This document shows positions 3-20,157 of a DNA stretch of 20,157 nt, one piece after another. This stretch comes from a virus. The notes below the pieces were generated by a model. The model had not been told where the DNA came from. It saw only the letters and a program-made list of their open reading frames with translations, and made no database searches. Within the stretch, counting starts at the first letter, position 1. Each line of letters begins with the position of its first letter. The stretch is taken from the IMG/VR virus record IMGVR_UViG_3300007542_000271, positions 1 through 20,157 of that record, one strand, 5' to 3'. A program made the position numbers and the translations under genes.

Positions 3-1892
3 CTCTACGTACCTAATGTAAAGTTTACTGACACGGAGAAATCACGTATCTTTGTGAAGGTTACGAAGACTAAAGTTTTGGCTGCTTTTGGTCAGATGAC
101 AGAAGTGCTCTTTGGTGGAAATAAGTTTCCTATCACTATTGACCCTACTACCCTCCCTGATGGGGTTTTGGACACTGTCCATATCGAGACCAACGACAAG
201 GTAAAGGAAGCAGAGAAGTCTGCAGGTATTCAATCCCTCCTTCCTGGGGAAACAATGCAAACCTTCCGGGAACGTCTTGGTGGTCTTAAAAAAGAGTTGG
301 AGCCCATTGAAGAGGTAAAGCCGGGACCTGGAGTAACACCCTCGCAGGTTACTTTTGAGCCCGCAATGGTTGCAGCCAAGAAGATGGAAAAGAAAATCCA
401 CGACCAGTTGGAGGAGTCTCACGCAAAGAAGCACCTCCGTGCAGCAGCCTTTGAATGCTCCCTCTTTGGTACCGGCATTATGAAAGGCCCATTTGCTGTT
501 GATAAAGAATACCCACGTTGGGACGACACAGGTAAGTATGACCCTCTGATCAAGACTGTCCCTATGGTCTCTAGCGTTTCTATCTGGAACTTCTATCCTG
601 ACCCCGATGCCAACAGTATGGAAGAAGCTGAGTATGTGATCGAACGCCATAAGATGTCCCGCAGTGAGCTTCGTAAGCTTTCTGCAAGGCCCTATTTCCG
701 TAAGAATGAGATTGAAGCTGCCATTAAGTTTGGTCCTAACTACACTAAAGAGTGGTGGGAGCAAGAGATGGAGGATGACGCTCAAGAGGTTCAAACCGAG
801 CGTTTTGAGGTCTTGGAGTTCTGGGGTAATGTGGACATGGAAGTCCTCAAGCGTCACGAAGTTAATATCCCTCTTGAGTTGCGTAAGAGTTTGCAAGTGT
901 CTGTGAACATTTGGGTGTGTAATGGAAGAGTCTTGCGCCTTGTCATGAATCCCTTTACCCCTACGCTAATCCCCTTCTACTGCGTACCTTACGAGATTAA
1001 CCCTTACTCGATGTGGGGTGTTGGTGTAGCTGATAACATGGACGACACCCAAACGCTTATGAATGGCTTTATGCGTATGGCTGTTGATAACGCGGCCCTC
1101 AGTGGCAACTTGATCATTGAGATTGATGAGACCAACTTGGTACCGGGCCAAGACCTATCTGTGTATCCGGGTAAAGTATTCCGTCGTCAAGGTGGTGCTC
1201 CTGGTCAAGCCCTCTTTGGCACTAAGTTCCCTAACGTCTCTAATGAGAACATGCAGATGTTTGACAAGGCACGAGTACTTGCAGATGAGTCTACAGGGTT
1301 CCCATCGTTTGCCCACGGACAGACTGGGGTCAGTGGCGTAGGACGTACAGCCTCTGGTATCTCCATGTTGATGTCTGCCGCTAACGGATCTATCCGTACT
1401 GTGGTCAAAAACATTGATGACTACCTATTGGCACCTCTTGGCAAAGCTCTCTTCAGCTTCAATATGCAATTTGACTTTGACCCTGAAATCAAAGGTGACT
1501 TGGAAGTTAAAGCTGCAGGGACAGAGTCCTTGATGGCTAATGAAGTCCGTAGCCAACGCCTTATGCAGTTCCTTGGTGTGGTCCAAAACCCGATGCTGGC
1601 ACCCTTTGCTCGTCTGGACTACATCATTAGAGAGATTGCTAAGTCTATGGAACTTGACCCTGACAAGGTTGCTAACTCTATGCAGCGGGCTGCTATCCAG
1701 GCTGAAATCTTGAAGACCTTCCAAGCCTCTCAACCCCCTGCACCAGAGGGACAGGCCCCCGGAGGGAAACCCCCAGCAGGAGTTCAAGCACAAGACACTA
1801 CGGGTTCCGGTGGCGGCAGTATTGGTACAGGCTCAGTCCCTCAACCGGGAGAACAAGGCTTTAGTGCAAACACAGGTGAAGGTGCCCAATGA
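3..1892 (+). CDS. Portal (head-tail connector) protein, 5' end outside window
   Basis: The dodecameric portal sits at one capsid vertex, nucleates assembly and is the channel for DNA entry and exit. The frame is open to the left edge with no start codon other than an internal GTG at 54, so the gene begins upstream; 629 residues are visible. The visible N-terminal stretch with VKVTKTKVLAAFGQMTEVLF, the segment around IWNFYPDPDA (near residue 195 of the visible part) and the following basic helix (HKMSRSELRKL) are typical of podovirus-type portals. The tail (last about 55 residues) is Pro/Gly/Gln-rich and probably disordered. The stop overlaps the next start (ATGA), implying translational coupling. 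Its place ahead of scaffold and capsid genes supports the call. The family assignment is by recognition of sequence style and synteny. Confidence 0.85.
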   Translation, partial: LYVPNVKFTDTEKSRIFVKVTKTKVLAAFGQMTEVLFGGNKFPITIDPTTLPDGVLDTVHIETNDKVKEAEKSAGIQSLLPGETMQTFRERLGGLKKELEPIEEVKPGPGVTPSQVTFEPAMVAAKKMEKKIHDQLEESHAKKHLRAAAFECSLFGTGIMKGPFAVDKEYPRWDDTGKYDPLIKTVPMVSSVSIWNFYPDPDANSMEEAEYVIERHKMSRSELRKLSARPYFRKNEIEAAIKFGPNYTKEWWEQEMEDDAQEVQTERFEVLEFWGNVDMEVLKRHEVNIPLELRKSLQVSVNIWVCNGRVLRLVMNPFTPTLIPFYCVPYEINPYSMWGVGVADNMDDTQTLMNGFMRMAVDNAALSGNLIIEIDETNLVPGQDLSVYPGKVFRRQGGAPGQALFGTKFPNVSNENMQMFDKARVLADESTGFPSFAHGQTGVSGVGRTASGISMLMSAANGSIRTVVKNIDDYLLAPLGKALFSFNMQFDFDPEIKGDLEVKAAGTESLMANEVRSQRLMQFLGVVQNPMLAPFARLDYIIREIAKSMELDPDKVANSMQRAAIQAEILKTFQASQPPAPEGQAPGGKPPAGVQAQDTTGSGGGSIGTGSVPQPGEQGFSANTGEGAQ

Positions 1893-2080
1893 ACCTAAAA
1901 CCTTTCGTCAACAACAAAGAACTTTGGCAAGACTTTAACCTAGAGCTTGCTAACCGTATCCATACGTGCTATAAAAAGCTCGAACAAGTTGTGGACATCC
2001 CCGAAATCTATAGAACCCAAGGTGAAATTCAAGCACTTAAAAACCTCATTAAACTTCGAGATAAGGTGAATGCAGAATGA
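1889..2080 (+). CDS. Small conserved-looking phage protein, 63 aa, unknown function
   Basis: This is a short, charged, probably all-helical protein. It starts inside the portal stop codon (ATGA) and its own stop overlaps the next start (ATGA), so all three genes are likely translated as a coupled unit. The C-terminal half (YRTQGEIQALKNLIKLRDKVN) resembles a small helical protein I recall directly after portal genes in other podovirus-like phages. No enzyme motif, signal peptide or membrane segment is visible. A minor connector or assembly factor is possible from position only. It is real rather than a chance frame because it fills the space between two genes exactly and has coupled overlaps at both ends. 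Confidence 0.75.
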   Translation: MNLKPFVNNKELWQDFNLELANRIHTCYKKLEQVVDIPEIYRTQGEIQALKNLIKLRDKVNAE

Positions 2081-4566
2081 ACCCAGATCAAACCACACAG
2101 ATTCTTAGAGATAGCAGGAGCGCAGCTCTTCTTAAATATGTCTCTGAGGGTGCCACTTTAGAAGACCTCGAAGCGGCTGGTTACACCACAGAAGAAATAT
2201 CTCTAGCCCTGAAAGAGCCTCAAGAAACATTGGGTACTACGGCCAAAGAGTTTGATCGGGATCGACAAGGCACAGTAAGGCAAGATACTATAGAGAGTTA
2301 TACCCCCACATACAGGGACAAGCTTCGTTCAGGTATTGAGAAGGGTTCCTCTGTTTTGGGTGGGTCTAAACAAACTGGACAATTTCTTTCAGACAGACTT
2401 CTTGGAAGTAAGACAAGCGACGAAATGGGCCTCCTTGACCTCACAGGGATCACAGCACCTCTTGGCATCCAAGAAGGTTCCCGACAGGTAAGACGTGGCT
2501 ATAATACAGGGAATAAAGCTGACATGGCCCTTGGCACTTTGGGGGCAGGACTAAACGCACTCTCTGCTGTACCGGGAGGAAGGGTTATTGCAAAAGGTGT
2601 CACCAAAGGCGCAGAAAAACTTGTAGGGAAGTTGGTTGCAAAAAAGGGCTTAAACCAACCACCCAGAGCTGTTATTCGTTCCGACAACCTCTTTCGTGGG
2701 GAAGGTCCAATAACTACCAGCCTCAGCTCTGCAACTAAGCCTTATGCGGTACGCTTAACCGGCCAAAGTCAAATTGATGATATGATTAAATCTGGGCTTG
2801 TTAGACCTAAAGTGGGGGGTTATGGTAAAAGCAAAAAATCAACCCTTTACTTTGGGGAAATGGACGAGGCTACCCCAAATAGTGTCTTTACACGCCCTAC
2901 AGAAAGCTCTGGTAAGGAGTACACAATTGTTGCTAAAGCCCCTCAAATTGCAGGTAGAGAAGGCCCTATCCCAATAGATGAACTGCAGCACATTTGGACA
3001 ATGCGAAACGGGGAAATGGTAGATATTCTCCCAGAAGTCCTTAAGAGAAATGTAGACTACACCCCTGCAGGTTTTGCTCAGGGTGGTTCAGTGGAGGATA
3101 GTCAAATGGAGAGATTGATGCAAGAAGGTGGTATGGCTGATGATGGGATGGAACAAGAGCCTGTAACTGGGAATGACATTCCTCCGGGTTCTCTGGCTTC
3201 TGAAGTCCGAGACGACATTGATGCCAAACTTTCAGAAGGTGAATATGTTGTGCCTGCTGACGTAGTCCGTTTCTTTGGTGTGCGGTTCTTTGAAGACCTC
3301 CGTAATCAAGCCAAACAAGGTCTCTCTGAAATGGACGCTGATGGACGTATTGGAGGGGCACCTGTTAGCCCTGAAGGTATTCCTGTTGGTATGGGTGAGG
3401 AAGACGACGAGCTTACCCCTGAAGAACTCCAGATGCTGGAAGAGGCTCTTGGAGGCATGGCAACTGGTGGTATGGTAGCTCAAAAACCCGCTATGGGGAT
3501 GCAAGAAGGTGGCTCTACCGGAGGTTTTGACCGTTCCACCTTTACCCTTTCCCCAGATACTACGGGGGGTTTCGAGTCTCGTAAATATATTAACCCTCAA
3601 ACTAAAGAAGAGCGTGAGTTCCAGTTCCTTGATGGTCAACCCTTGGGTGCTATCCCAAAAGGTTTTGTCCCTTGGTCTGAAGAACTAACCCAAGAGACCC
3701 CTGAGACTGAAGCTGCAGCAGGTGAAGAAGAGGGTGCCTTGGTCAACCGCCGAAGAAGAACCAACACTAGCTCTCCTGCCGTTACGTCCGGTACAGGTGA
3801 TGCTGGGGACACAGGAGAAGGTTCAGGTGGGATTGACTATCAAGGTTGGGCAGAAAAGAATGCTGATTCCTTGAAGTCTGACCCCTACGCTTTTGGTGTC
3901 AATGCCCTCTCTGATAAGACAGGGAAAGGACTAGCTCAAGGTTTGGCAGTTGCAGGTGCTGCCACAGGGAACCCCTTGGGTCTGCTTGGTGCGGCTGGTG
4001 TAAAAGCCTACAACAAAGGTCAGAACATTGCGGAAGCTAAAGCTGCTCTGCAACAAATGGCTAAAAATGGTTTGGATAAAACACCTCAGTACCAAGACCT
4101 TTCGAGCAGAATTAATAATGCTGTAGACAACCTCCCAGGCCTTCAAAGGTTTGCAGTCGAACAAGAACTCGTCTCTACAGGGAATGAATACTTTAAGTCT
4201 GCGAACCAAGAACCTGCAAGAGAAGCGTCTAGCTCCTCTTCGTCGTCTTCGTCAAGCTCTCCTTCTTCTCCCCCGCCCCGTCGCCCTGGGTCTTTCTCTA
4301 CTCAAGGCTCTTCTGCACAAGTTGCAGCTGCTAGACCAAGTTCTGGTGGGGGTGGAGCTGACTCTGGACAAGCTGCTGCTGCTATTGCTCAACCTAAACC
4401 CGTCACTACAATCTCCGGCCCTGCTGGGATGCCTATCACACCTAAGCCCCTTACTGCTGCCCAATCTGGAAGCGATGCTAGAGAAGGGCGTAGGGCTACA
4501 GGTGGCCTAGTTACAAAGAAGAACCCCGTAAAAGCACCTAAAAAAGGTCTTGGCGGCAAGAAATAA
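2077..4566 (+). CDS. Large multi-domain virion-associated protein, 829 aa
   Basis: The exact role is unknown; its position between portal and scaffold suggests a head or ejected protein. Visible parts in order: residues 1-60, acidic helical start; about 85-190, Gly/Ala-rich helices (LGTLGAGLNALSAVPGGR) with amphipathic character; about 195-325, a compact globular-looking domain with R226, S255-T256 and E302 spaced somewhat like ADP-ribosyltransferase-type folds (speculative); about 370-427, a segment containing LSEGEYVVPADVVRFFG and the following FFEDLRNQAKQGLSEMD, which I recall from marine phage structural proteins; 430-580, acidic low-complexity; about 590-690, helices with a hydrophobic Gly/Ala stretch (GLAQGLAVAGAATG). 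From residue 718 there is an 11-serine run, then Pro/Arg- and Gly-rich sequence and a Lys-rich end. The short motif GG-[S/M/L]-V occurs at residues 336, 464 and 809. The start overlaps the upstream stop (ATGA). Confidence 0.7.
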   Translation: MNPDQTTQILRDSRSAALLKYVSEGATLEDLEAAGYTTEEISLALKEPQETLGTTAKEFDRDRQGTVRQDTIESYTPTYRDKLRSGIEKGSSVLGGSKQTGQFLSDRLLGSKTSDEMGLLDLTGITAPLGIQEGSRQVRRGYNTGNKADMALGTLGAGLNALSAVPGGRVIAKGVTKGAEKLVGKLVAKKGLNQPPRAVIRSDNLFRGEGPITTSLSSATKPYAVRLTGQSQIDDMIKSGLVRPKVGGYGKSKKSTLYFGEMDEATPNSVFTRPTESSGKEYTIVAKAPQIAGREGPIPIDELQHIWTMRNGEMVDILPEVLKRNVDYTPAGFAQGGSVEDSQMERLMQEGGMADDGMEQEPVTGNDIPPGSLASEVRDDIDAKLSEGEYVVPADVVRFFGVRFFEDLRNQAKQGLSEMDADGRIGGAPVSPEGIPVGMGEEDDELTPEELQMLEEALGGMATGGMVAQKPAMGMQEGGSTGGFDRSTFTLSPDTTGGFESRKYINPQTKEEREFQFLDGQPLGAIPKGFVPWSEELTQETPETEAAAGEEEGALVNRRRRTNTSSPAVTSGTGDAGDTGEGSGGIDYQGWAEKNADSLKSDPYAFGVNALSDKTGKGLAQGLAVAGAATGNPLGLLGAAGVKAYNKGQNIAEAKAALQQMAKNGLDKTPQYQDLSSRINNAVDNLPGLQRFAVEQELVSTGNEYFKSANQEPAREASSSSSSSSSSSPSSPPPRRPGSFSTQGSSAQVAAARPSSGGGGADSGQAAAAIAQPKPVTTISGPAGMPITPKPLTAAQSGSDAREGRRATGGLVTKKNPVKAPKKGLGGKK

Positions 4567-7324: not shown

Positions 7325-8014
7325 ATGTCCAACTACGTAATTCTCGTCAACCTTCTTTTGACAAGGCTCAACGAGGTTACTCTTGACCCGCTTGGTGATG
7401 GTTTTGATTCTGTTCGCGGTGTTCAGGCTCTGGCTAAAGACGCTGTGAATAATAGTCTTCGTACAATTTATCAGGAAGCCCAAGAGTGGCCTTTCCTCAA
7501 AAATACTTTCACTCAAACTCTCACTGTTGATGTCAGGGAGTATAGTTACCCTGCAGATTACTCTTCCTCGGACATCTCTACTTTTTATCTGAAAAAGAAT
7601 ACTTCGCTCAACAACCAGCCCCGCTATTTACCTGTTATCTCTTACGAAGAGTACACCCAAGAGTTTCGGGCTCAAGATGACGAAGGCCAAGAAGGTCCCC
7701 CAGAAAGAGTCTACCAGACTTACGGAAGTAATTTCGGTGTCTCCCCTAACCCAAATCAAGCATATGATTTAGAGTATATATACTGGAGCATCCCTGCAGA
7801 CTTACGACTTTATACTGATGTGTGCGTAATCCCCAGCAGGTTTGACCATATTATCGTTGACGGTGCTATGACATACATGATGAACTTCCGTTCAAACGAC
7901 CAAAGTGCAGAAATACACAAACAAAAATTTGAAAGCGGCATCAGGGCTATGAGACGTATTCTCCTTGATGAACCCACTTACATTAGGGGTACCGTGATTC
8001 GTGGGAGAGGTTAA
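7325..8014 (+). CDS. Tail tubular protein A-like head-tail adaptor, 229 aa
   Basis: Adaptors of this type form a ring under the portal and receive the nozzle. The N-terminal helices (LLTRLNEV, then ALAKDAVNNSLRTIYQEAQEWPF, about residues 12-58) match the pattern of T7 gp11 / P22 gp4-type adaptors: an N-terminal helical bundle with a conserved 'E-x-x-W-P-F' turn, then a beta-rich middle and a C-terminal helix (HKQKFESGIRAMRRIL). The position between head genes and the nozzle gene, and the TAATG overlap with the nozzle gene, support it. Assignment rests on motif style, size and order. The start has only a modest ribosome site (AGGG 11 bases upstream). Confidence 0.75.
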   Translation: MSNYVILVNLLLTRLNEVTLDPLGDGFDSVRGVQALAKDAVNNSLRTIYQEAQEWPFLKNTFTQTLTVDVREYSYPADYSSSDISTFYLKKNTSLNNQPRYLPVISYEEYTQEFRAQDDEGQEGPPERVYQTYGSNFGVSPNPNQAYDLEYIYWSIPADLRLYTDVCVIPSRFDHIIVDGAMTYMMNFRSNDQSAEIHKQKFESGIRAMRRILLDEPTYIRGTVIRGRG

Positions 8015-9567: not shown

Positions 9568-11628
9568 ATGACAGGATACGTTCGCCAAGCTGCTGCGGAT
9601 ATTGTTCCTACAGCTGTTGTGAGATCTGCCCCAGTCAACTCTGAGTTCAACGCAATCCGCGATGCCTTCTCTGCGAGTACTGGTCACAGACACGATGGTT
9701 CTACTGCAGAGGGCACTTACGTACCCTTGATTGCGGATGCAGACGCCAGAAACAAGGTGGTTGTAAATACTACAGACAATCGCGTAGAGCTTTATGTTGA
9801 AGTCTCTGCGACCCCTGTTGCCCAAGTGTACATTCAGGATGGAGTTCTCCTCCCTGTCGTTGATAATGATATTGATCTTGGGTCTTCCAGCCTTGAGTTC
9901 AAAAACTTGTTCATTGACGGCACCGCAAAGATTGACACCCTGACTGTCGATGAGAATGCTGTGATTGCTGGCACCCTTAATGTTGTTGGCCTGTCAACCC
10001 TTGCTTCTGTTGCTGTTAGTGGCGGTACAATCAATAATGCGGTTATCGGAGGTACAACCCCCCAAGCTATCACTGGCACCCTTGTTACTGCTACCACAGG
10101 TTTCTCTGGAACCCTTACTGGTAACGTCACAGGCAATCTTACTGGTAACGTCACAGGCAATCTTACTGGTAACGTCACAGGCAATGTCGCAGGCAATGTC
10201 ACTGCGTCCAGTGGTTCGAGCACTTTTACTGATGTTACAATCAACGGCTCCCTGAACATGAACAGTGGTAGTGCGGGCACCGTAACGGGACTCTCTGCAC
10301 CTGTAAATGGCACGGATGCAGCCACTAAGACTTATGTTGATACTGCAGATGACCTCAAGCTAAACCTCTCTGGTGGCACCATGAGTGGCGCTATTGCTAT
10401 GGGCACCAATAAAATCACAGGTCTGGGGACCCCTACAAGCACTGCAGACGCTGCCACTAAGGGTTACGTTGATACCACTGTTGCAAGTCTAATTGATTCT
10501 GCTCCAGGTACTCTTGACACCTTAAACGAGCTTGCTGCTGCTCTTGGGGACGACCCTAACTTTGCCACAACGACGGCCACTTCTATTGCGGCTAAAGTCT
10601 CTAAGGCTGGGGACACCTTGACAGGTGACCTGGTTATGGGTTCAAACAAAGTCACCTCAACGTCAACCCCCACAACTGAGGACACGCTTACCCGTAAGGG
10701 CTATGTTGATACTCAGGTCACTACCCGACTACCCCTCTCTGGTGGCACCATGAGTGGCGCTATTGCTATGGGGACAAGCAAGATTACTGGCGTAGGCGAT
10801 CCTACATCCAATCAAGATGCTGCTACTAAGTTTTACGTAGATGACCAAGGTGCTACCAAATTGAACCTCTCTGGGGGTACAATGACAGGTAACATCTCAA
10901 TGGGGGCAAACAAAGTCACATCCACTGCTACGCCTACTGTAGCTGATGACTTAACACGTAAGGGTTATGTTGATAGTATTCTAGGGAGTGCAACATCTGC
11001 TGCTGCTAGTGCGGCTGCTGCTGCTACGTCTGAAACTAATGCTGCAGGGAGTGCATCTTCTGCTCTGACCAGTGCAAACAATGCTGCAGCCTCTTTCGAT
11101 AGTTTTGATGATAGGTACCTTGGAGCTAAGGCATCTGCACCCTCTGTCGATAACGACGGGAATGCGCTCCTGTCGGGTGCAATCTACTGGAACACGGAAA
11201 GTACGCAGTTTTTTGTTTGGACAGGTTCTGTTTGGAGCGCCGCAGTTTTTGTTATAGATGACACCGTAGTGACCCTCACGGGCACTCAAACGCTCACTAA
11301 TAAAACACTGACTGCATATAGAGAAACCGTTGGGACTGTCACCTCAAGCACTGTTGACCTGTCTACAGGCACTGTGTTCTCGGATACACCCGCCACTGAT
11401 CCGACATACGTCTTCAGCAATCCACCTACCTCTGGTACCGCCACGGGTTTCACACTCAAAATTACGCCGTCTGCTACAGTGACAATCACTTGGCCTATTT
11501 CAGTTGACTGGCCGAACGCTTCGGCACCTGCAGCACCTGCAAGTGGTACAACCAGCGTCTTTGTGTTCTATACCCAAGATGGTGGCACGACTTATTATGG
11601 TTTTGTTTCTGGCGAGGGTATGGCATGA
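9568..11628 (+). CDS. Tail fibre protein with repeats, 686 aa
   Basis: This is an elongated host-contact fibre, expected to be trimeric. Domains: residues 1-70, probable virion-attachment part with the HxHDG motif at 40-44; about 90-180, beta-repeat shaft ([17 protein letters not shown]); 183-212, tetrapeptide [L/V]TGN/VAGN repeats encoded by a 24-bp tandem repeat; about 230-470, four copies of the tail-fibre module that begins LSGGTMSG, runs through MGTNKIT and ends near DAATKGYVD; about 471-511, Ala/Ser-rich coiled coil; about 513-555, the FDDRYLGAK unit ending in [14 protein letters not shown]; about 570-686, beta-rich tip with [14 protein letters not shown] and a C-terminal [15 protein letters not shown] segment, all common in phage fibres. 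AGGAGG lies nine bases before the ATG. It overlaps the next gene by ATGA. Confidence 0.88.
10114..10185 (+). repeat. 24-bp perfect tandem repeat, three copies, in the fibre gene
   Basis: Units 10114-10137, 10138-10161 and 10162-10185 are identical and each encodes LTGNVTGN; a half-unit variant (VAGN) follows at 10186-10197. Perfect identity at DNA level indicates recent slippage or duplication. Confidence 0.9.
10365..10772 (+). repeat. 39-bp exact direct repeat within fibre modules
   Basis: Positions 10365-10403 and 10734-10772 are identical over 39 bases, 369 bases apart (123 codons, in frame). They encode the [13 protein letters not shown] part of two of the four fibre modules. An in-frame deletion or duplication between them would preserve the reading frame. 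Confidence 0.85.
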
Positions 11629-13067
11629 GTGGGATAGCTCGACGCCTGATGGCCACCCCAATGAGAGAGCCTATGGAGCTGGTGTTTAACACGGCTCTTG
11701 GTGATACCACGATTGAAATCCCATTCGGTAGCTCTACTGTCGTAAACGTTGAGGTGGATTGGGGTGATGGGACTTCGGACACCTACACGACTAACGGCAC
11801 CAAGACCCATACCTATGCTTCGGGGGGTATCTATAATGTTTCTATACAAGGGTACCTGTCACAATTTGGCGCCACTGCAACACTTAATCGCCCGGAACTT
11901 ACTGGGTGTTTGTCGTTCGGTACCCTTGGTTTGACAAGTCTTGGGGGTGCGTTTCGTGATTGTATTAACCTGACGGAAGTACCTGAAAAAATACCCTCTT
12001 CTGTTACGAGCATGACTTCTATGTTCTCTGGGGCTACCTCTTTCAACCAAGATATCGGTTCTTGGGATACATCTTCTGTTACGAGTATGTCTGGTATGCT
12101 CTCGGGGGCTACCTCTTTTAACCAAAACATTGGTTCTTGGGATACATCTTCCGTTACGAGTATGTCTTTTATGTTCTCTGGGGCTACCTCTTTCAACCAA
12201 AACATTGGTTCTTGGGATACATCTTCTGTTTTCACTATGTTTGCTATGTTCTCTGGGGCTACCTCTTTTAACCAAGATATCGGCTCTTGGGATACATCTT
12301 CTGTTACGAGTATGACTTCTATGTTAGAGAATGCTACAGCCTTTAATCAAGACCTTACGGGTTGGTGTGTTGGTAACTTTGGGTCCGAACCCACCAGTTT
12401 CGCTGGTGGGACATCAGGCCTAAGTGTAGGCAACAAACCAGTCTGGGGCACCTGCCCATTGTACGTTGCCGATGGCTCGATTACCTACATTGGGGAGGCC
12501 ACAGGAACGTCGAGTGCCACACTACCTCCGCATCAGTCCGGGGACCTCATCCTCGCTTTTGCGTTCCGAGACGGGTCAACAACACTTCCGACGCAACCCT
12601 CCGGCTGGAGCTTTCTGGATGGGACCGGAGCCAACTCTTGCGCAGGACGGGTGTCTTACAAAGTTGCGACATCCGATAGCGAAACCACAGGCACCTGGAC
12701 AAATGCTACAACTGTTATTTTTCTTATTTATCGTGGTGTGAATCTTGGAAACCCCCTAAGTCTCTCCAACAGAAGCACAGGTTCGAGCACCACCGTCAAC
12801 TACAACACCAACGCCTTCTGGCAGGGGCTCTCTCGTCTGCTTACTTTCGCAGGACACCGGAGCACTAACACCGCACTTGAAACACCTCCGGGGACACTAA
12901 CGTTAATCGTGAACGCTGTGGATGCCTCTGATGAGGCTGCTGCCTTCCACTCTACCGTTGATAATTTTGGAGATTGGGCCAGCACAAATGTATCTGTTGG
13001 AGGTACGTCTTCTGGCTGGATCACTTTCACGCTTCGCCTTCGTGTCCCCATAACTCCAGCCCCGTAA
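11625..13067 (+). CDS. Host-recognition protein with BspA-like leucine-rich repeats, 480 aa
   Basis: Probably a tail adhesin. Residues 1-20 (MSGIARRLM) are a short lead; about 20-85 form a PKD-like beta domain with [11 protein letters not shown] and [12 protein letters not shown]; about 100-132 enter the repeat solenoid ([13 protein letters not shown]). Residues 133-232 are four 25-residue repeats of the DUF285/BspA type (core [19 protein letters not shown]), followed by a capping half-repeat ending GWCV and the closing KPVWGTCP. About 280-480 is a separate beta-rich domain ([20 protein letters not shown]) of the kind found at phage tail tips. No signal peptide. The ATG overlaps the fibre stop (ATGA) and the next gene is a fibre chaperone, so a role in the tail is likely. 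GC content rises in the C-terminal part, suggesting module exchange. Confidence 0.75.
12021..12368 (+). repeat. 75-bp tandem repeats encoding leucine-rich repeats
   Basis: Units start at 12021, 12096, 12171 and 12246, each exactly 75 bases (25 codons, all beginning with ATG), with a divergent fifth from 12321. Neighbouring units differ at only a few bases outside the variable last codons. There are no gaps, so copy number can change without loss of frame. Confidence 0.9.
12390..12410 (+). other. Perfect 8-bp hairpin inside the adhesin gene
   Basis: CCCACCAG (12390-12397) pairs with CTGGTGGG (12403-12410), loop TTTCG. No T-tract follows, so it is not a terminator. It sits between the last leucine-rich repeat and the GC-richer C-terminal domain. 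Confidence 0.55.
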
Positions 13068-13077
13068 GGAAACCCCT

Positions 13078-13515
13078 ATGCTTATTAGAATCACAAACGG
13101 CGTTCCCGAGACCTACACAATCGGACAGCTACGCCGCGACAACCTCAACGTTAGCTTTCCAAAGGACATCCCTGCGAAGACGCTTGAAGCTTTTGGTGTC
13201 TACGAAGTTAAGGAACTTCCTCGGCCCCCCTTTGACCCCGAGACGCATTACCTGAAGGCATCGGACTTCTACCAGGTTGAAGGTAAGTGGCAGGTTCATT
13301 ACTACCCAGAACCCCTCCCACTGGCTCAGGTCAAAGAAACAATGCAAGCCAGACGTACTAACCTTCTTGCTCAGTCTGACTGGATTGTAGTTGTGGCCTA
13401 TGAGCGGCAGGAATCTGTACCACAAGAATGGGTAGCGTACCGCCAAGCCCTCCGTGACGTACCTGCACAACAGGACTTTCCTTACGAAATTCTTTGGCCC
13501 AATAAACCCGCTTGA
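13078..13515 (+). CDS. Tail fibre assembly chaperone-like protein, 145 aa
   Basis: Such proteins bind fibre tips during folding and are usually encoded right after the fibre or adhesin, as here. The C-terminal third has the recognisable pattern: a helix ending RRTNLLAQSDW, a middle helix with VPQEWVAYRQALRDVPAQ and a terminal ILWPNKP, as in the phage tail assembly chaperone family (Pfam Phage_tail_APC type). The N-terminal part (residues 1-75) is beta-rich with several prolines. A Shine-Dalgarno AAGGAAA lies before the ATG. Such genes tend to move together with their fibre tips, consistent with the base composition it shares with the preceding domain. Confidence 0.8.
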   Translation: MLIRITNGVPETYTIGQLRRDNLNVSFPKDIPAKTLEAFGVYEVKELPRPPFDPETHYLKASDFYQVEGKWQVHYYPEPLPLAQVKETMQARRTNLLAQSDWIVVVAYERQESVPQEWVAYRQALRDVPAQQDFPYEILWPNKPA

Positions 13516-13565: not shown

Positions 13566-16500
13566 ATGAATTTTACCCCGCAACAGCAACACAACCTCTT
13601 GTCAAAGATGGGATATGACGGGCCTGCTAACCCTAAGATGATGGATGCTTTCGTGTCGTCCAACCCAGGTGCCGCTGCAAGAATGGGGAAGTTTAATCGT
13701 GCTCTTCAAAAGAGGGCTGGTGCTCCTATGGGTATGGCTGTAGGGGGTTCTGTCGGGGTCACCTACAGGCTTATTCAGACGGACCAAGGTAACTATCGTC
13801 TCATTGACTCTACGGGTAAGGTTATTGAGAGTGGTTCTAAGTCCGATAAAGATCGTCTTACTGAAAAGATGAATAGCCTTAATAACCCTTCGGCTAACAC
13901 AGGTGCAGCTTCTGGTACTGCTGCAGGTGATACTTCTGGTGCAGCTTCAGGTACTACTGCAGGTGATACTTCTGGTACTGCCCTTTCGCCGGGTTCGCAG
14001 ATGAACCAGAAAACTATTAATGACCCTAAGGACATTTCTGTAAAAAATGCACCTAAAAAGGGTACTGACCTTTCGCCGGGTTCGCAGATGACCCAGAACA
14101 TTATTAATGACCCTACTGGACTGGCGACGAAGCCTGAAGTAGAAGACATTTCTGTAAAAAATGCACCTAAAACCATTATTGGGGAGGATGAAGGTCAAGC
14201 TCAAGAGACTGCACCTGCAGGCACTACCGCTGTAAAAAATGTGTCTACTGCCGCTGCTCCTACGCCTACCCCTGCAAGCCTGATTGATGCAGCTATGGTT
14301 ACCCCTGGAGTGACTGGGGTCGTAGATGACCTTGAAGCTGCTACAGGTACTGTCTCTGATAAAGTTACAGCTCAGACTATGAACCCTGAGAAGCTGGCTT
14401 CCTTGGGTCTCCCTGCAGCAGAGATTGAAAAAATCCGTAAGGTACTGGACACTGGGGACCTTGAGATTACCCCTGAGCAATTGGCAGAGGCTGCTACCTT
14501 GGCTAGTCAAGGGATGTCTTTGCCTCAAGCAGTGGCTAAGGTCACTAAACAAGATTTTGAAGCTATTGCAGCTAAGTTTAAGGGGGCTACCCCAGAGGCA
14601 GAAGCTGTTACTGAGTACGACACGACAGGTATGGGTGTTGCTCAAAGAGATGTCTCTGATGAAGAGCTTGCTAGAGTAGCAGGGTTGAATGCAGAGGCTG
14701 AACAAGCAAAAGCTGCTCAATCCTTGTTTGAAGCTAAGGCAAGGTTTGCAGAAGGTAAGATTACACCTAAGCAACTGGCTGATGCTCAAACTGAATATGA
14801 TAATATTGTCACAAAAATTGCTAAAGGTACTGTTGGCGAGAAAGAGCTTATCAAAGGACAAGGTGCAGGGCTTACAGCTGAACAAGCTGGTGAGGTTGAG
14901 GCAACCTACGATGATAGCTTAGAAGCTGCACAAGGGAAAGTTAAGAAGGGGGAGATTGTAGATGCCAACACTGCGTATGACCTTCCTCCCACAGAGTCTG
15001 CAACCCTTAATAATACTGTCGTCCAAGGGGCAGCTAAAGCTGGTGACATCCCTAGTGCTGAAGCTGCTGCAGCAATCTACGCCCAAACTTTGGCAGCTGC
15101 TAAAGGCAACGTAGGTGCAAACGAACTGGTTGATGCAAAGGACGTAGTTAAAGTTGCAGAAGCTGTAGAGGCTGTTGCTGCCACTATGGATGCACTCAAT
15201 GCTGCCTCTGTGATGCAGGCCAGCCAAGGTACGCTTTCTCAGGCAGCCCTTGCTCAAGCTCAACTGGGTCAAGTACCTGTATCTGCTACTGTTGCAGGTC
15301 AAATGACGACCTTGATGGAGCAGTTTAATAATGGTACCCCAGCTTGGGCTGCAGGTGCTATGAGGGCTGCAAACGCAGCTATGGCGGCAAGAGGTCTTGG
15401 TGGATCTTCTATGGCTGCAGCAGCTATTATACAGGCTGCGATGGAATCTGCTCTCCCTATTGCTGGGGCAGATGCTCAAGCTTTCATGCAAATGGAAATG
15501 GGCAACCTTGACCGTCTTCAACAAGTCTCTCTGGCGAATGCTGCTGCACAACAAAACATTACGTTGGCTAACCTCAGCAACCAGCAACAGGCTGCCTTGC
15601 AGAATAGTTCCAACTCCTTTGCCTTGCAATCTCAAAGCCTTTCTAACCAACAATCTGTAATCTTGGCCAACGCACAGATCAAAGCTGCACAGCAAGGCCA
15701 AGTCCTTGAGGTCACTGCACAGGCTGCTTTGGCTAACGCTGCTCGGTATGCCGAAGTCAATAACATCAACTTGACCAACAAACAACAGGCACTTCTGCAA
15801 AGAAGCAGCCAAAGTCTTCAAGTCGATCTGGCCAACTTGGATTCGACACAACAAACTGCTTTGGCTAACCTGCAAGTCCAGGCTGCCCTTCGTGGTCAAG
15901 AGCTATCTAATGAACAGCAAGTGGCAATGCTTACCTCGACACAAGCTTTCCAAGCTGCAGAGTTTGATGCGACTGCTGAACAGCAAGCTTTGCTGCAAGA
16001 TGCCTCTGCTCGTCTGGCTATGGAGGGTAAGGTCATGGATATTAATCAGCAGACCTCTCTCTTCAATGCAAGCCGCGTCGCCCAGGTCAATGATGTCAAC
16101 TTGAGCAATGCCCAACAAGTCCTCCTGCAAAGGAGTGCTGAAAACCTGCAAGTGGATATGGCAAACCTTTCTGCTAAAACCCAAACAGGTTTGGCTAATG
16201 CTCAACTTCGAGCTGCCCTCCAAGGTAAGATCTTGGATAACAAGCAGCAAGCAGCTGTGTTGAATGCTGAACGGTATGCTGAAGTAAACAATCTTAACCT
16301 TTCAAACAGACAACAAGCCTTTCTTCAAGACGCAAACATTCGTGCAGCCCTTGAAGGTAAAGTCTTGGATAACAAGCAACAAGCTGAACTATATAACGTT
16401 TCTCGTATTGCTGAAGTTCAAGATATTAACATCACAAACGAACAACAAGCTTTGATCCTGAAAAGCACTCAAGCTTTTGATGTAGATATGGAGAACACTA

Positions 16501-17744
16501 GCAACAGGCAGCAGACAGCTCTTGCTAATGCTCAACTTAGAGCTTCCCTCCAAGGTAAGGTCTTGGATAACAAGCAACAGGTGGCTTTGATTAATGCTGA
16601 ACGGTATGCTGAAGTAAACAATATCAACCTTAGCAACCAGCAACAAGCTTTTGTACAAGATTTTGTAGCCAAAACCACTATGGAAGGCAAAGTCCTAGAT
16701 AACAAGCAACAAACTGCGATCTTCAATGTAGCAAACAAGCTGGAAGAGCGTCAGATTAACCTCAGCAATGAGCAGCAGACTCGTCTCTTCAATATGACTA
16801 ATAACGTCACTGTTGAGATGACCAACCTCTCCAACAGACAACAAACTGCTTTGGCTAATGCTCAGATCGAAGCCTCTCTCCGGGGTCAAGAGTTGACTAA
16901 CATCCAGCAGACTGGGGTTCTTAATGCTGCCCGTATCAGTGAGGTGGCCAACATCAACTTTACTGCAGACCAGCAAAGAGCTTTGGAGAATGCCCAACTA
17001 GCACAAACGGTAGACTTGGCTAACTTGAACTCTCGCTCTGCAAAGGTGCTTGCTGACGCTGCTGCAATGGCCAACATGGATATGGCAAACCTAAACAACA
17101 GACAGCAATCCCAAGTCCAGAACGCTCAGAACTTCCTGCAGATGGACTTGGCTAACTTGGATAATGAGCAACAGACTGAACTGTTTGCTTCTCAAGCTAT
17201 GATCAACTCCCTCTTGTCCGATCAGGCTGCGACCAATGCTGCCTCTCAGTTCAATGCTGCAAGTGAAAACCAAGTCAATCAGTTCTTTGCTGACATGGCA
17301 TCTAACGTCTCTCAGTTTAACGCTTCTCAACAGAATGCTATCAAGCAGTTTAACTCTGGGGAAGCTAACGCGACAGAACGTTTCAACACTCAGTTGGAGG
17401 CTGCCAGGTCTCAGTTCAATGCTACCAACAGCTTGGTCATTGCACAAGCAAATGCTCAGTGGCGACAGAACACTTATACCCTGAATACTGCGGCACAGAA
17501 CGAAGCTAATATGGAACTGGCAAGAACTGAAAACGCTTTGACTGTAAAAGCCCTTGACCAGATCTGGCAGCGGGAACGAGATACAATGTCTTATGTTTTC
17601 TCTTCTTTGGAGAGGGACGAAGACCGTGCACTTGAACTCCTTCTTTCAGATAAAAGAGATGATTTGGCAAAGTGGACTGAAGGTCAGGCAGAGGATGCAG
17701 CAAAAACCGCACTCCTTGTACGTGCTCTCTTTGGAGGTTGGTAA
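13566..17744 (+). CDS. Giant repeat-rod virion protein, 1392 aa
   Basis: Function is not known; this is a structural or ejected virion protein by context. Parts: 1-65, helical start with AVGGSV at 58-63; 100-205, low-complexity Gly/Ala/Ser/Thr with two duplicated segments (LSPGSQM and DISVKNAPK, each twice); about 230-590, Ala/Glu-rich helices; about 595-640, WAAGAMRAANAAMAARGLGG and following residues, a segment I recall from other marine phage proteins; 647-1218, 26 consecutive 22-residue repeats without a gap; 1229-1316, eight 11-residue repeats mostly starting FN; then a charged helical end finishing ALFGGW. The repeat region has few prolines and no cysteine and is probably a very long helical rod. 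GGAG lies before the ATG and the stop overlaps the next start (TAATG). It could be an inner-core or ejection protein, or an external whisker. Confidence 0.8.
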   Translation: MNFTPQQQHNLLSKMGYDGPANPKMMDAFVSSNPGAAARMGKFNRALQKRAGAPMGMAVGGSVGVTYRLIQTDQGNYRLIDSTGKVIESGSKSDKDRLTEKMNSLNNPSANTGAASGTAAGDTSGAASGTTAGDTSGTALSPGSQMNQKTINDPKDISVKNAPKKGTDLSPGSQMTQNIINDPTGLATKPEVEDISVKNAPKTIIGEDEGQAQETAPAGTTAVKNVSTAAAPTPTPASLIDAAMVTPGVTGVVDDLEAATGTVSDKVTAQTMNPEKLASLGLPAAEIEKIRKVLDTGDLEITPEQLAEAATLASQGMSLPQAVAKVTKQDFEAIAAKFKGATPEAEAVTEYDTTGMGVAQRDVSDEELARVAGLNAEAEQAKAAQSLFEAKARFAEGKITPKQLADAQTEYDNIVTKIAKGTVGEKELIKGQGAGLTAEQAGEVEATYDDSLEAAQGKVKKGEIVDANTAYDLPPTESATLNNTVVQGAAKAGDIPSAEAAAAIYAQTLAAAKGNVGANELVDAKDVVKVAEAVEAVAATMDALNAASVMQASQGTLSQAALAQAQLGQVPVSATVAGQMTTLMEQFNNGTPAWAAGAMRAANAAMAARGLGGSSMAAAAIIQAAMESALPIAGADAQAFMQMEMGNLDRLQQVSLANAAAQQNITLANLSNQQQAALQNSSNSFALQSQSLSNQQSVILANAQIKAAQQGQVLEVTAQAALANAARYAEVNNINLTNKQQALLQRSSQSLQVDLANLDSTQQTALANLQVQAALRGQELSNEQQVAMLTSTQAFQAAEFDATAEQQALLQDASARLAMEGKVMDINQQTSLFNASRVAQVNDVNLSNAQQVLLQRSAENLQVDMANLSAKTQTGLANAQLRAALQGKILDNKQQAAVLNAERYAEVNNLNLSNRQQAFLQDANIRAALEGKVLDNKQQAELYNVSRIAEVQDINITNEQQALILKSTQAFDVDMENTSNRQQTALANAQLRASLQGKVLDNKQQVALINAERYAEVNNINLSNQQQAFVQDFVAKTTMEGKVLDNKQQTAIFNVANKLEERQINLSNEQQTRLFNMTNNVTVEMTNLSNRQQTALANAQIEASLRGQELTNIQQTGVLNAARISEVANINFTADQQRALENAQLAQTVDLANLNSRSAKVLADAAAMANMDMANLNNRQQSQVQNAQNFLQMDLANLDNEQQTELFASQAMINSLLSDQAATNAASQFNAASENQVNQFFADMASNVSQFNASQQNAIKQFNSGEANATERFNTQLEAARSQFNATNSLVIAQANAQWRQNTYTLNTAAQNEANMELARTENALTVKALDQIWQRERDTMSYVFSSLERDEDRALELLLSDKRDDLAKWTEGQAEDAAKTALLVRALFGGW
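13902..13973 (+). repeat. 36-bp tandem repeat, two copies
   Basis: 13902-13937 and 13938-13973 encode GAASGTAAGDTS and GAASGTTAGDTS and differ at two bases. They are part of the disordered linker near the N-terminus of the 1392-residue protein. Confidence 0.85.
13983..14172 (+). repeat. Duplicated linker segment with two exact direct repeats
   Basis: A 22-base element is exactly repeated at 13983-14004 and 14070-14091 (LSPGSQM), and a 28-base element at 14031-14058 and 14145-14172 (DISVKNAPK). The order A-B-A-B shows one duplication of the block, with an extra 28-base insertion in the second copy. Confidence 0.85.
15504..17219 (+). repeat. 26 tandem 66-bp units (22-residue repeats), with 330-bp super-repeat
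   Basis: The protein frame reads as 26 successive blocks of exactly 22 residues with no insertion or deletion. First-half consensus is NLSNxQQxALx; the second half begins NA and often ends GK, GQ or NNI. Blocks five apart are most alike: 6, 11, 16 and 21 share TALANAQLRA-like cores, and 12 and 17 share LNAERYAEVNN. At DNA level a 30-base stretch at 16263-16292 recurs exactly at 16593-16622, 330 bases later. The array thus grew by duplication of five-unit (110-residue) blocks. Confidence 0.92.
17250..17513 (+). repeat. Eight 33-bp units (11-residue repeats)
   Basis: Directly after the 22-residue array come eight blocks of 11 residues, e.g. FNASQQNAIKQ, FNSGEANATER and FNTQLEAARSQ. The first six begin with Phe and seven of eight have Asn in position 2. 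The unit is half the length of the preceding repeat, supporting an underlying 11-residue helical period. Confidence 0.8.
17733..17737 (+). promoter_or_regulatory. Ribosome binding site deciding the hydrolase start
   Basis: GGAGG ends six bases before ATG 17744. A TTG at 17738 in the same frame lies immediately behind this site, too close to be used, so ATG 17744 (two codons later) is the better start. The site overlaps codons of the upstream gene. Confidence 0.75.
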
Positions 17745-18475
17745 TGGATTACGCTAAGAATTATATGAACACAGTCAGTCTTGCAGATAGGATCAGAGAA
17801 GGTGCAACAGAGGGGAAGGTTGTAAAAGCTGCTGGTGGGCTTGGTGCTAGGGAGTCTCAAAGAGTTGCTCAGAGCAGCCAAGATGTAAACTTTGGCACTC
17901 TCCGTGCAAGCTATCTTAACGATATCAGGGATATGTTTGCCAGCACCACAGAAAGAAGTAGTGTCGAGGAGTTGAAGGGGTACTTGGGGGACTCTCCTAT
18001 GACATCCCTTAGACCTAAGAGAAGCCCTGCGTCTTGGGAGAGAGCCCCCATGCACGAACCTATTTCTGCTGACATCACAGACGATAATGTTCGACAAATC
18101 CTTGATACCATTAAAGGGCGAGAGTCAGGTGGGGACTACAGTGTCCAGAATGAGAAAGGTTCTGCCTCAGGTGGGTACCAGTTCATTGACACTACTTGGC
18201 AGAGCCTTACCTCAAAATATGGCGTAGGTACTGAGTATGATTCTGCTAAAGATGCACCCTCAGATGTACAAGACCTCGTCGCTGCTGAGTATGTCAAAGA
18301 AATTCTTGCCCAAAACGATAATGATGTTACCAAAGTTCCTCTTGTGTGGTACACTGGAAACGCTGCAGGCCAAATAAGTGCCGAGGATGTTGCCCTTAAT
18401 AATGGACTTACTGCCGCAGAGTACCAAGACAGGTGGCTGAGAGCTTATGGTAGAAACGCTGGAGAAGCTGAATGA
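17744..18475 (+). CDS. Transglycosylase-like peptidoglycan hydrolase, virion-associated
   Basis: Probably cleaves peptidoglycan glycan strands locally so that DNA can pass during infection. The product is 243 residues from ATG 17744. The first 110 residues are helical and of unknown role. Residues about 112-235 have the lysozyme-like transglycosylase pattern: helix, then GRESGGDYS with likely catalytic E127, then SASGGYQFIDTTW (140-152) and, further on, VPLVWYTGNAAG (198-209). This is the arrangement seen in Rpf/Slt-type domains. No signal peptide, holin or spanin neighbour is visible, and it sits among virion genes, so ejection with the virion is more likely than a lysis endolysin. The start overlaps the upstream stop (TAATG) and the end overlaps the next start (ATGA). 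Confidence 0.75.
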   Translation: MDYAKNYMNTVSLADRIREGATEGKVVKAAGGLGARESQRVAQSSQDVNFGTLRASYLNDIRDMFASTTERSSVEELKGYLGDSPMTSLRPKRSPASWERAPMHEPISADITDDNVRQILDTIKGRESGGDYSVQNEKGSASGGYQFIDTTWQSLTSKYGVGTEYDSAKDAPSDVQDLVAAEYVKEILAQNDNDVTKVPLVWYTGNAAGQISAEDVALNNGLTAAEYQDRWLRAYGRNAGEAE

Positions 18476-19029
18476 AACGTTTTAGTGGCCCTATCCCAGG
18501 GCAATCCTTGACTACAACCCCCAAGAATAGCCCTTGGGAACGCCCCCCGGAGATTAGTGACCCGGAAGAGGCTATCCAGATGCACATTACTCGGCTGTCA
18601 CAACCTGATATGCTGAACTCTGTCCTTGATGTTGTAGAGTTGGAAGAGATTGACCTTAACACCATTGTAAAAGGTATCGTAAGAGGTGCTGTCTATAACG
18701 GCATCCACAGCATTGATGTAGGACTTCTTGTTGCACCTATTATCCATGAATTTATCAAGCAAGCTGCAAACTCTGTAGGTATTGCTACAGAAGATGGCTT
18801 TGAGGATAAGGGTGCCAAAGAGAAGCAGCGTCAGTACTCTGTATCAAAACGTGCACAGAAGATGTTGAAAGAAATGGGTGCTACCCCTAAGGAAGTTCTC
18901 TCTGAGGCTCCTGTCGAAGAAGCTCCTGCAGAGGAGATGACACAAGGTGCACCTATGGAAGCAGGCCCTCAAGAGGGTGCAGCAACAGGGATGGCCCCTA
19001 AGGGTCTGATGTCTAGAGGGGCTATGTAA
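18472..19029 (+). CDS. Conserved-looking phage structural protein with GPIPGQSLTT start, 185 aa
   Basis: Function unknown. The N-terminus FSGPIPGQSLTTTPKNSPWE followed by RPPE resembles a protein family I recall in marine phages, including cyanophage-like ones, near structural genes. Residues about 35-110 form a helical, fairly hydrophobic core (IVKGIVRGAVYNGIHSIDVG, VAPIIHEFIKQAA) that could be amphipathic or membrane-contacting. Residues 120-185 are Glu/Ala/Pro/Met/Gly-rich and probably disordered. It is coupled by ATGA to the hydrolase gene upstream and by TAATG to the next. From the company it keeps, an inner virion or ejection role is plausible but unproved. Confidence 0.7.
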   Translation: MKRFSGPIPGQSLTTTPKNSPWERPPEISDPEEAIQMHITRLSQPDMLNSVLDVVELEEIDLNTIVKGIVRGAVYNGIHSIDVGLLVAPIIHEFIKQAANSVGIATEDGFEDKGAKEKQRQYSVSKRAQKMLKEMGATPKEVLSEAPVEEAPAEEMTQGAPMEAGPQEGAATGMAPKGLMSRGAM

Positions 19030-19985
19030 TGGGTTTCTGGCAAGGTTTGAATGCAGGGTTTACTGCCGTTGAAGAACAGCGTACCCGTAAGCGTGAGAGA
19101 GAAGAAGACCTCAAGCTTCGTAAAGAAGAGCTTGCTGAACAGAGAGCTTTCGAGAGAGAGAACTTTATGATGCGTATCAAGCAGGATCGCTTGGGTATTC
19201 TCCAAGAGCGTTACCTCCAGAAAAAAGCAGAGGAGGCGGAAGCCAACACAGTCTCTACTGAAGCTTCGAGTTTCTTTAACAGACTCGAAGGTGTTGACCC
19301 TGAGGTAGTAAAGCTTTACCAAAGCAATCCTATGTATGCCGCTCAAGCAGAACGAGCTGTCCGTGAGGCAGAAAGGAATCGTGCAGAGGCTGGTCAAACA
19401 GGTGCAAGGCTTGCCGGGAACCTTTTGGTAGAGATGGTCCCACCCCCTTCCGCTCGGGTACAAACCCCTAACATTGATGTTTCTGACTTTGAGAACCTTA
19501 ACATTAATGACGATAATGTTTATTTTGGACTTTATGAGCAGACCAATATTCCTGCCCAACAAGAATTTTCGGCCAACCCTGAACTCTTCCGAGTAGTAAA
19601 CCCTGACGTTCTTAAAGAAGGTCGTTTGCAGTTTGATACAAAAGTTCTGCAACTTGCTCTGGAAGAGAAAGAAAGGTTGAACACCGATGAAACTCGGGTA
19701 GAGTTTAGTGAGTTCTCAGATAAATTGAAGAACTACAAAGAGGCTAGTAGCCCTGACCGAGTGGAAATCCTCCAGACGTTTGGGCCTGCTGCCTTGGCAG
19801 ATCTGATGTCTATGGATAACCCCTACCTCCAAGACCTGACGAACACCCCTGAGTTCACTTCCATCGTCCCAGCGGCGACAGAAATCTTGAAGCTCCGCAA
19901 TGGTATTCAAGATCCTAATGTCTCGGAGGAAGATAAAGACCGGGCACGAGCTATCTTGTTCACACGTTATGGAGTGTCCCAGTAA
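19029..19985 (+). CDS. Helical virion-cluster protein, 318 aa, unknown function
   Basis: No family is recognised. After MGFWQGLNAGFTAV, residues 15-75 are a highly charged Arg/Glu/Lys coiled coil (RTRKREREEDLKLRKEEL and on). The middle (about 130-200) is more globular, with several Asn/Asp/Phe-rich turns. The C-terminal third is helical (FGPAALADLMSMDNPYLQDL, AATEILKLRNGI). No signal peptide or membrane helix. It begins on the upstream stop (TAATG) and ends the same way, so it belongs to the same coupled set as the hydrolase and the GPIPGQSLTT protein. Confidence 0.7.
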   Translation: MGFWQGLNAGFTAVEEQRTRKREREEDLKLRKEELAEQRAFERENFMMRIKQDRLGILQERYLQKKAEEAEANTVSTEASSFFNRLEGVDPEVVKLYQSNPMYAAQAERAVREAERNRAEAGQTGARLAGNLLVEMVPPPSARVQTPNIDVSDFENLNINDDNVYFGLYEQTNIPAQQEFSANPELFRVVNPDVLKEGRLQFDTKVLQLALEEKERLNTDETRVEFSEFSDKLKNYKEASSPDRVEILQTFGPAALADLMSMDNPYLQDLTNTPEFTSIVPAATEILKLRNGIQDPNVSEEDKDRARAILFTRYGVSQ

Positions 19986-20157
19986 TGTCGGATTTTAGTC
20001 AGTTCCTCGACTCTCTTGAAGAAGAAGATGATGCTGAAAAGAAAGTTATGGCACCCCTTGAGTTGGTTCAAGGGGATGACCTCACTGCGACTATGCCAGT
20101 GCAACCTGAGGCACCTAAAAGTGAGTTCTCTTCTTTTCTTGACCAACTGGAAGCTGA
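19985..20157 (+). CDS. Start of a further gene, cut by window edge
   Basis: An ATG at 19985 sits in the upstream TAA (TAATG), and the frame stays open to the right edge, giving 57 visible residues. The sequence is acidic and contains a motif twice: SDFSQFLDSLEE at 2-13 and SEFSSFLDQLE at 45-55. Such short helical motifs separated by a linker could be docking elements. The rest lies outside the window, so no function is proposed. Confidence 0.65.
   Translation, partial: MSDFSQFLDSLEEEDDAEKKVMAPLELVQGDDLTATMPVQPEAPKSEFSSFLDQLEA

Follow-up and report, generated by a model that had tools for sequence, protein, structure and literature searches.

Proteins gp20 to gp24 of phage SU10 (Kuravirus), of which gp20 is a transglycosylase, occur in virions and are lacking in the intermediate of genome release (PMC9509320). 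The ejection proteins of T7 (PMC8954989) and of DEV (PMC10925440) make a channel that spans the envelope. For phages of the HMO-2011 type, no virion proteomics was found in the literature, and publications on hendecads or 22-residue repeats in phage virion proteins yielded no description of the repeat-protein family considered here.

The DNA analysed (the window) is a 20,157-base IMG/VR virus record from a marine virus of bacteria. On it lie late genes of a podovirus of the HMO-2011 type, which encode a portal and an adaptor of the SU10 families, a major head protein and tail proteins, followed by the gene of a large repeat protein. The computed gene neighbourhood comprises the following features:

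3..1892, + strand: portal protein, SU10_portal family (PF23899), assigned by Pfam
7325..8014, + strand: adaptor, SU10_adaptor family (PF24175), assigned by Pfam
13566..17744, + strand: ORF of the repeat protein, 1392 aa, with homologues in, among others, HMO-2011 (gp25), CRP phages, HTVC103P and CHOED (gp13)
17744..18475, + strand: transglycosylase-like protein (Pfam PF06737), whose ATG overlaps the stop codon of the repeat gene (TAATG)
18472..19029, + strand: 185-aa protein of the PIPGQSLT...PWERPP family, syntenic in every relative examined
19029..19985, + strand: 318-aa protein, fourth gene of the cluster (ORF call)
19985..20157, + strand: further ORF, start only, cut by the window end (ORF call)

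The repeat gene opens the last block of the late cluster and is followed by the genes of the transglycosylase, the 185-residue and the 318-residue protein, and by the truncated ORF. The corresponding place in HMO-2011 is taken by gp22 (1128 aa), the final late gene; the genes behind it are on the opposite strand. The muralytic gene behind the repeat gene encodes a transglycosylase in the window (17744-18475) and a PF07486 cell wall hydrolase in CRP-603 (L026 8415-9356), and HMO-2011 has no annotated gene at this position; this looks like a non-orthologous replacement. A comparison of the window transglycosylase with SU10 gp20 gave no significant match.

Two genes of the tail region contain repeats of their own. 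The tail-fibre gene (686 aa) carries three perfect 24-nt repeats coding for LTGNVTGN (10114-10202). The gene of a 480-residue protein (11625-13067) carries four tandem 75-nt repeats (11997-12325); its product matches DUF285 (BspA-like) with an E-value of 7e-62 and is an unusual putative receptor-binding protein. Between the portal and a putative scaffold, an 829-residue protein (2077-4566) contains the motif (PPGSLASEVRDDIDAKLSEGEYVVPADVVRFFG) and weakly matches a PHROG of tape measures.

Almost all homologues of the repeat protein are annotated as hypothetical, and no family in Pfam, PHROG, NCBIfam or the PDB matched it. None of the 1392 residues is a Cys, all 30 Pro residues are located upstream of residue 632, and the repeat array contains neither Pro nor Trp. 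The protein was divided into these segments:

15339..15476, + strand: conserved Ala/Gly-rich segment (PAWAAGAMRAANAAMAARGLGGSSMAAAAIIQAAMESALPIAG...) upstream of the array, recognised by invariant alignment columns and hydropathy
15504..17219, + strand: array of 26 gap-free 22-residue blocks, each predicted to consist of N-cap (position 3), helix (4-19) and loop (20-3)
15768..15833, + strand: block 5, class e, module marker with predicted 12-residue helix and special linker
16098..16163, + strand: block 10, class e, module marker with predicted 12-residue helix
16428..16493, + strand: block 15, class e, module marker with predicted 12-residue helix
16758..16823, + strand: block 20, class e, module marker with predicted 12-residue helix
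16824..17219, + strand: blocks 21-26, a six-block core found in nearly every HMO-2011-type relative
17220..17741, + strand: conserved C-terminal domain with QFNA 11-residue repeats, NAQWRQ motif and long helices

Of all 19-residue stretches in the protein, the one of highest hydrophobicity lies inside the Ala/Gly-rich segment, and a related motif is also present in HTVC103P, Slicky01 and L023. The C-terminal domain is the part that is conserved as far as Vibrio, Aeromonas and Rhizobium phages. Between 17220 and 17425 it possesses its own 11-residue repeat (QFNASQQNAIK / QFNSGEANATE / RFNTQLEAARS / QFNATNSLVIA), which aligns with the first half of the 22-residue block.

Residues 647-1218 (nt 15504 to nt 17219) form 26 successive 22-mers with zero indels. 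The initial annotation, which had proposed 26 gap-free blocks from residue 647, was correct in number and coordinates, and its list of blocks ending in GK or GQ (3, 6, 8, 11, 13, 16, 18 and 21) was exact. In order to assess the nested periodicity of 11, 22 and 110 residues that it had also proposed, the self-identity of the protein was determined for each lag and scored versus 300 shuffles. The strongest lag was 110 (45.5% self-identity, z 26), the higher period. It was followed by lag 66 (36%, z 21), lag 44 (31%, z 18), lag 22 (27%, z 15) and lag 88 (z 12); lag 11 gave 15% (z 4.3). The periods of 22 and 110 are strong and stand, whereas the period of 11 is weak.

The structure of residues 560-1392 was predicted with AlphaFold2 (AF2) as a monomer from a shallow alignment of 48 sequences. 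The model has a mean pLDDT of 75 and a pTM of 0.54; pLDDT is 90-95 in mid-array, about 68 at the C-terminal end of the array and 55-90 elsewhere. All 26 blocks show a pattern of helix and loop. The typical block has a 16-residue helix (positions 4-19) and a 6-residue loop (positions 20-3), and a 12-residue helix with a longer linker occurs precisely at blocks 5, 10, 15 and 20. For the six-block form, the AF2 model was weak (pLDDT 61). Independent signals were obtained from 663 distinct blocks. Pro is absent from every one of them, and 116 of the 191 Gly residues occupy block position 21. Gly and Pro together account for 3.5% per loop residue (20-3) versus 0.5% per helix residue (4-19), a ratio of about 7. 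Position 3 is Ser, Thr or Asp in 74% of the blocks, as expected for a helix N-cap. Fourier analysis of large hydrophobic residues detected no power at the hendecad angle of 98 degrees (0.67; shuffle 95% limit 1.13). On the Kyte-Doolittle scale the 98-degree harmonic was marginal (59.5 versus 54.8), and harmonics 3, 8 and 10 were about five times larger. The Gly, N-cap and large-hydrophobic signals do not depend on AF2 and agree with one helix and one loop per block. Most likely, the array is a row of stacked helices, with one 16-residue helix predicted per 22 residues.

Because of the Gln/Asn content, a hendecad coiled coil was pursued first. Here, a continuous helix would build an extended alpha-helical barrel through which the DNA passes, comparable to the H tube of phiX174 and lined with Asn, Gln and Arg. 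Asn and Gln make up 28% of the array residues and Gln is almost invariant at block positions 6 and 7; moreover, hendecads occur in the H tube, whose lumen is lined by amides (PMC7354561), and a small shift in one relative (L101) comprises 11 residues. In a continuous helix of this kind, hydrophobic residues would form a stripe that advances by about 98 degrees per residue, but the large hydrophobics of the array do not follow it, the identity at lag 11 is weak, AF2 (as a monomer) breaks each block, and the loops are marked by Gly and N-cap residues. On the basis of the Fourier, AF2 and Gly/N-cap statistics the barrel was dropped as unlikely, although an oligomer might still adopt such a form on refolding. 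For the same reasons (a predicted loop in each block, Gly and Pro in the loops, no 98-degree power), the continuous hendecad coil of the initial annotation is not supported, although the array is helical as it had anticipated. Stacked helices are spaced by about 1 nm each; 26 of them would therefore extend over roughly 13-26 nm and would not form the 86-nm rod that had been calculated for a fully helical chain.

The predicted tandem of short, regularly spaced helices and loops (pLDDT to 95) corresponds to an alpha-solenoid. No named repeat family in Pfam (HEAT, TPR, Ank etc.) and no solved fold matched the array. Foldseek gave no fold match in the PDB at E<0.001, and its best, non-significant matches were mainly designed cages and designed helical repeat proteins; in BFVD, four viral relatives and nothing else were found. 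A PDB search with the family profile yielded KMP-11 alone, which was rejected as a chance match. The depositors of MW202701 labelled a homologue in that record 'huntingtin', the name of an alpha-solenoid protein.

The stacked helices are grouped in modules. The 110-residue period is a five-helix module a-b-c-d-e that consists of two similar helix pairs and a shorter fifth helix. Identity between classes is 0.38 for a-c and 0.375 for b-d versus 0.22-0.32 for the remaining cross pairs, and class e is set apart. The 3-2-3-2 spacing of GK/GQ blocks results from the fact that classes a and c share the GK/GQ loop. The module may be read as two helix pairs (a-b and c-d), presumably antiparallel hairpins, plus the short helix e, whose longer linker would restore the chain direction. 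A one-helix repeat of 22 residues with a five-helix period is an unusual helical architecture.

By means of tblastn, homologues were identified in 26 phage records, including HMO-2011 gp25, ten Roseobacter phages and pelagiphages; in Vibrio phage CHOED, Aeromonas MQM1 and Rhizobium phages, the match was confined to the C-terminal domain. Scans of IMG/VR yielded about 100 loci. Blocks were counted backwards from the conserved array end. Where the automatic count was 7, 22 or 27, one of the counted blocks is not a repeat (score 1-3), and the number was corrected to 6, 21 or 26, respectively; five loci (L060, L065, L049, L056, L057) were counted by eye. In the HMO-2011 clade, most arrays have 6 blocks and the others 11, 16, 21 or 26. 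On the tree, an expanded clade is set apart from the six-block clade (SH-aLRT 99), and no fewer than six changes of array length are required, each a multiple of five blocks. If sizes were indifferent to five, the chance of six such changes would be, as a rough guide, about (1/5)^6. Array length is variable but quantised (6+5n) in the HMO-2011 clade, not in the whole family: the distant relatives HTVC103P and L023 have 9 and 8 blocks. It had been argued that the strict absence of indels implies that length or register matters. This holds for register; a fixed length is contradicted by the 6, 11, 16, 21 or 26 blocks of the relatives. The proposed comparison of repeat numbers gave, in the HMO-2011 clade, differences of whole five-block units. 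Small shifts also occur among the relatives: 11 residues in L101, L030 and L034, and in L060 about two residues are missing near a loop. In L101 (4374-7274), the array has 11 blocks, one of which is interrupted by an insertion of 11 residues; this would lengthen one helix by three turns and leave the phase unchanged.

In the best block alignments, the length differences fall at whole blocks. Window blocks 14-18 are without partner in L007 and L005, blocks 12-16 in L076, and blocks 9-18 in L058 and L039; in each case the blocks to either side match well. The exact breakpoints are less clear in L112 and L054. The window, L035, L037 and L093 all carry 26 blocks, and each block has its counterpart in the others, which indicates that the long array is old. 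L005 and L035 have closely similar array flanks, contain 21 and 26 blocks and differ in the middle blocks; this looks like recombination within the array between lineages.

At the DNA level, too, the block copies are old. The mean identity between blocks is 52% at the five-block lag versus 38-46% at lags 1-4 and 6-9, and one pair of 149 nt, spaced by 330 nt, is 83% identical. TRF did not report a tandem array in the repeat region. Given these old copies and the TRF result, the array is not an assembly artefact. The peak at five blocks and the 149-nt pair would also be expected if the quantisation reflected history alone, that is, an early five-block duplication followed by unequal exchange between homologous modules, with no structural need. 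Divergence between most modules is too great, though, for homologous exchange to be efficient, the breakpoints vary by lineage while the cyclic order is kept, and each fifth block is structurally distinct in the AF2 model. A purely historical origin thus has a real but lesser chance of being correct; it is compatible with the fold and the role preferred below.

Alternatively, the number of modules might act as a ruler, matched to the thickness of each host's envelope or periplasm. Quantised variation in close relatives would fit, and repeats of siphophage tape measures have been proposed to ease the gain or loss of length (PMC5099701). Against a ruler, six blocks suffice for most relatives, and protein length outside the array varies widely, with a total of 596-1386 aa among six-block proteins; we regard it as improbable. 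A compensation of array length by N-terminal length was rejected as well, as the correlation was +0.21 and not negative.

With respect to function, position and composition suggest that the repeat protein is likely an ejection protein. Our preferred explanation, which we consider somewhat probable as a whole, is an array of five-helix modules in an internal virion (ejection) protein of an HMO-2011-type podovirus; the assignment to a podovirus virion, made in the initial annotation, is probably right. The array would be inserted between the conserved Ala-rich segment and the six-block core with the C-terminal domain. We infer that the protein is packed in the head, that it passes portal and tail in unfolded form, and that it refolds together with the muralytic enzyme next to it and the proteins encoded thereafter, to build a conduit through the envelope. 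The lack of Cys, the lack of Pro in the array and the hydrophobic Ala-rich segment are compatible with unfolding for portal passage. Two candidate homologies were rejected: an apparent GSSM motif had pointed to T7 gp14, but profile comparison was negative (E 0.2-0.9), and for NAQW-like motifs of SU10 gp21/gp22 the hhalign probabilities were below 1%.

The repeat gene directly follows the tail-fibre and tail-fibre-assembly genes (9568-13515), and its product could accordingly be sought outside the head, as a tail tip, fibre stalk or adhesin. Yet its gene lies upstream of that of a muralytic enzyme and of the large genes that end the late cluster, which is the place of SU10 gp20-24, its composition is helical, Cys-free and rich in Asn, Gln and Ala, and no fibre or receptor-binding domain was recognised in it. 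We therefore judge an external tail component to be unlikely.

If the repeat protein is an ejection protein, extra modules would lengthen or thicken its share of the conduit. One may go further and envisage an envelope-spanning modular helical stack that grows in indivisible quanta of five helices and 110 residues, such that phages tune the conduit by whole modules, by analogy with siphophages tuning their tails by tape-measure repeats; this we rate as rather unlikely. The series of 6, 11, 16, 21 and 26 blocks offers a natural test of whether ejection proteins have a length-setting part, a question posed by podovirus genome delivery.

A comparison with known systems places the locus as follows. 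Like alpha-solenoids and designed helical repeat proteins, the array is predicted to consist of short stacked helices joined by loops; in contrast to them, it has one helix per 22 residues, an odd five-helix module and no Pfam repeat family. The phiX174 H tube is likewise helical, rich in Gln and Asn and has a proposed role in DNA delivery, but H is a continuous decameric helix barrel, whereas the array has a loop per block. The tape measure of TP901-1, with repeats of 11/18 residues, is comparable as a helical phage repeat protein that varies by whole repeats. The repeats of siphophage tape measures are, however, marked by aromatic residues, whereas the array is Trp-free with periods of 22 and 110, and portal and adaptor of the window are of the short-tailed phage type; the 11/18-residue aromatic repeats and the long tail that characterise tape measures do not apply to the repeat protein. 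T7 gp14-gp15-gp16 and DEV gp73-gp72-gp71 are also adjacent genes of helical ejection proteins among structural genes, ordered small-medium-large. In the window, the genes with a comparable order of sizes come after that of a large repeat protein, which has no profile similarity to T7 gp14. SU10 differs in that its gene order starts with the transglycosylase and that gp21/gp22 lack a 22-residue array and significant similarity to the repeat protein. Nevertheless, gp20-gp24 of SU10 are located at the end of the late cluster with a transglycosylase among them, as is found for the last block that the repeat gene opens, gp21/gp22 are rich in Asn, Gln and Ala like the repeat protein, and portal and adaptor of SU10 share their Pfam families with those of the window.
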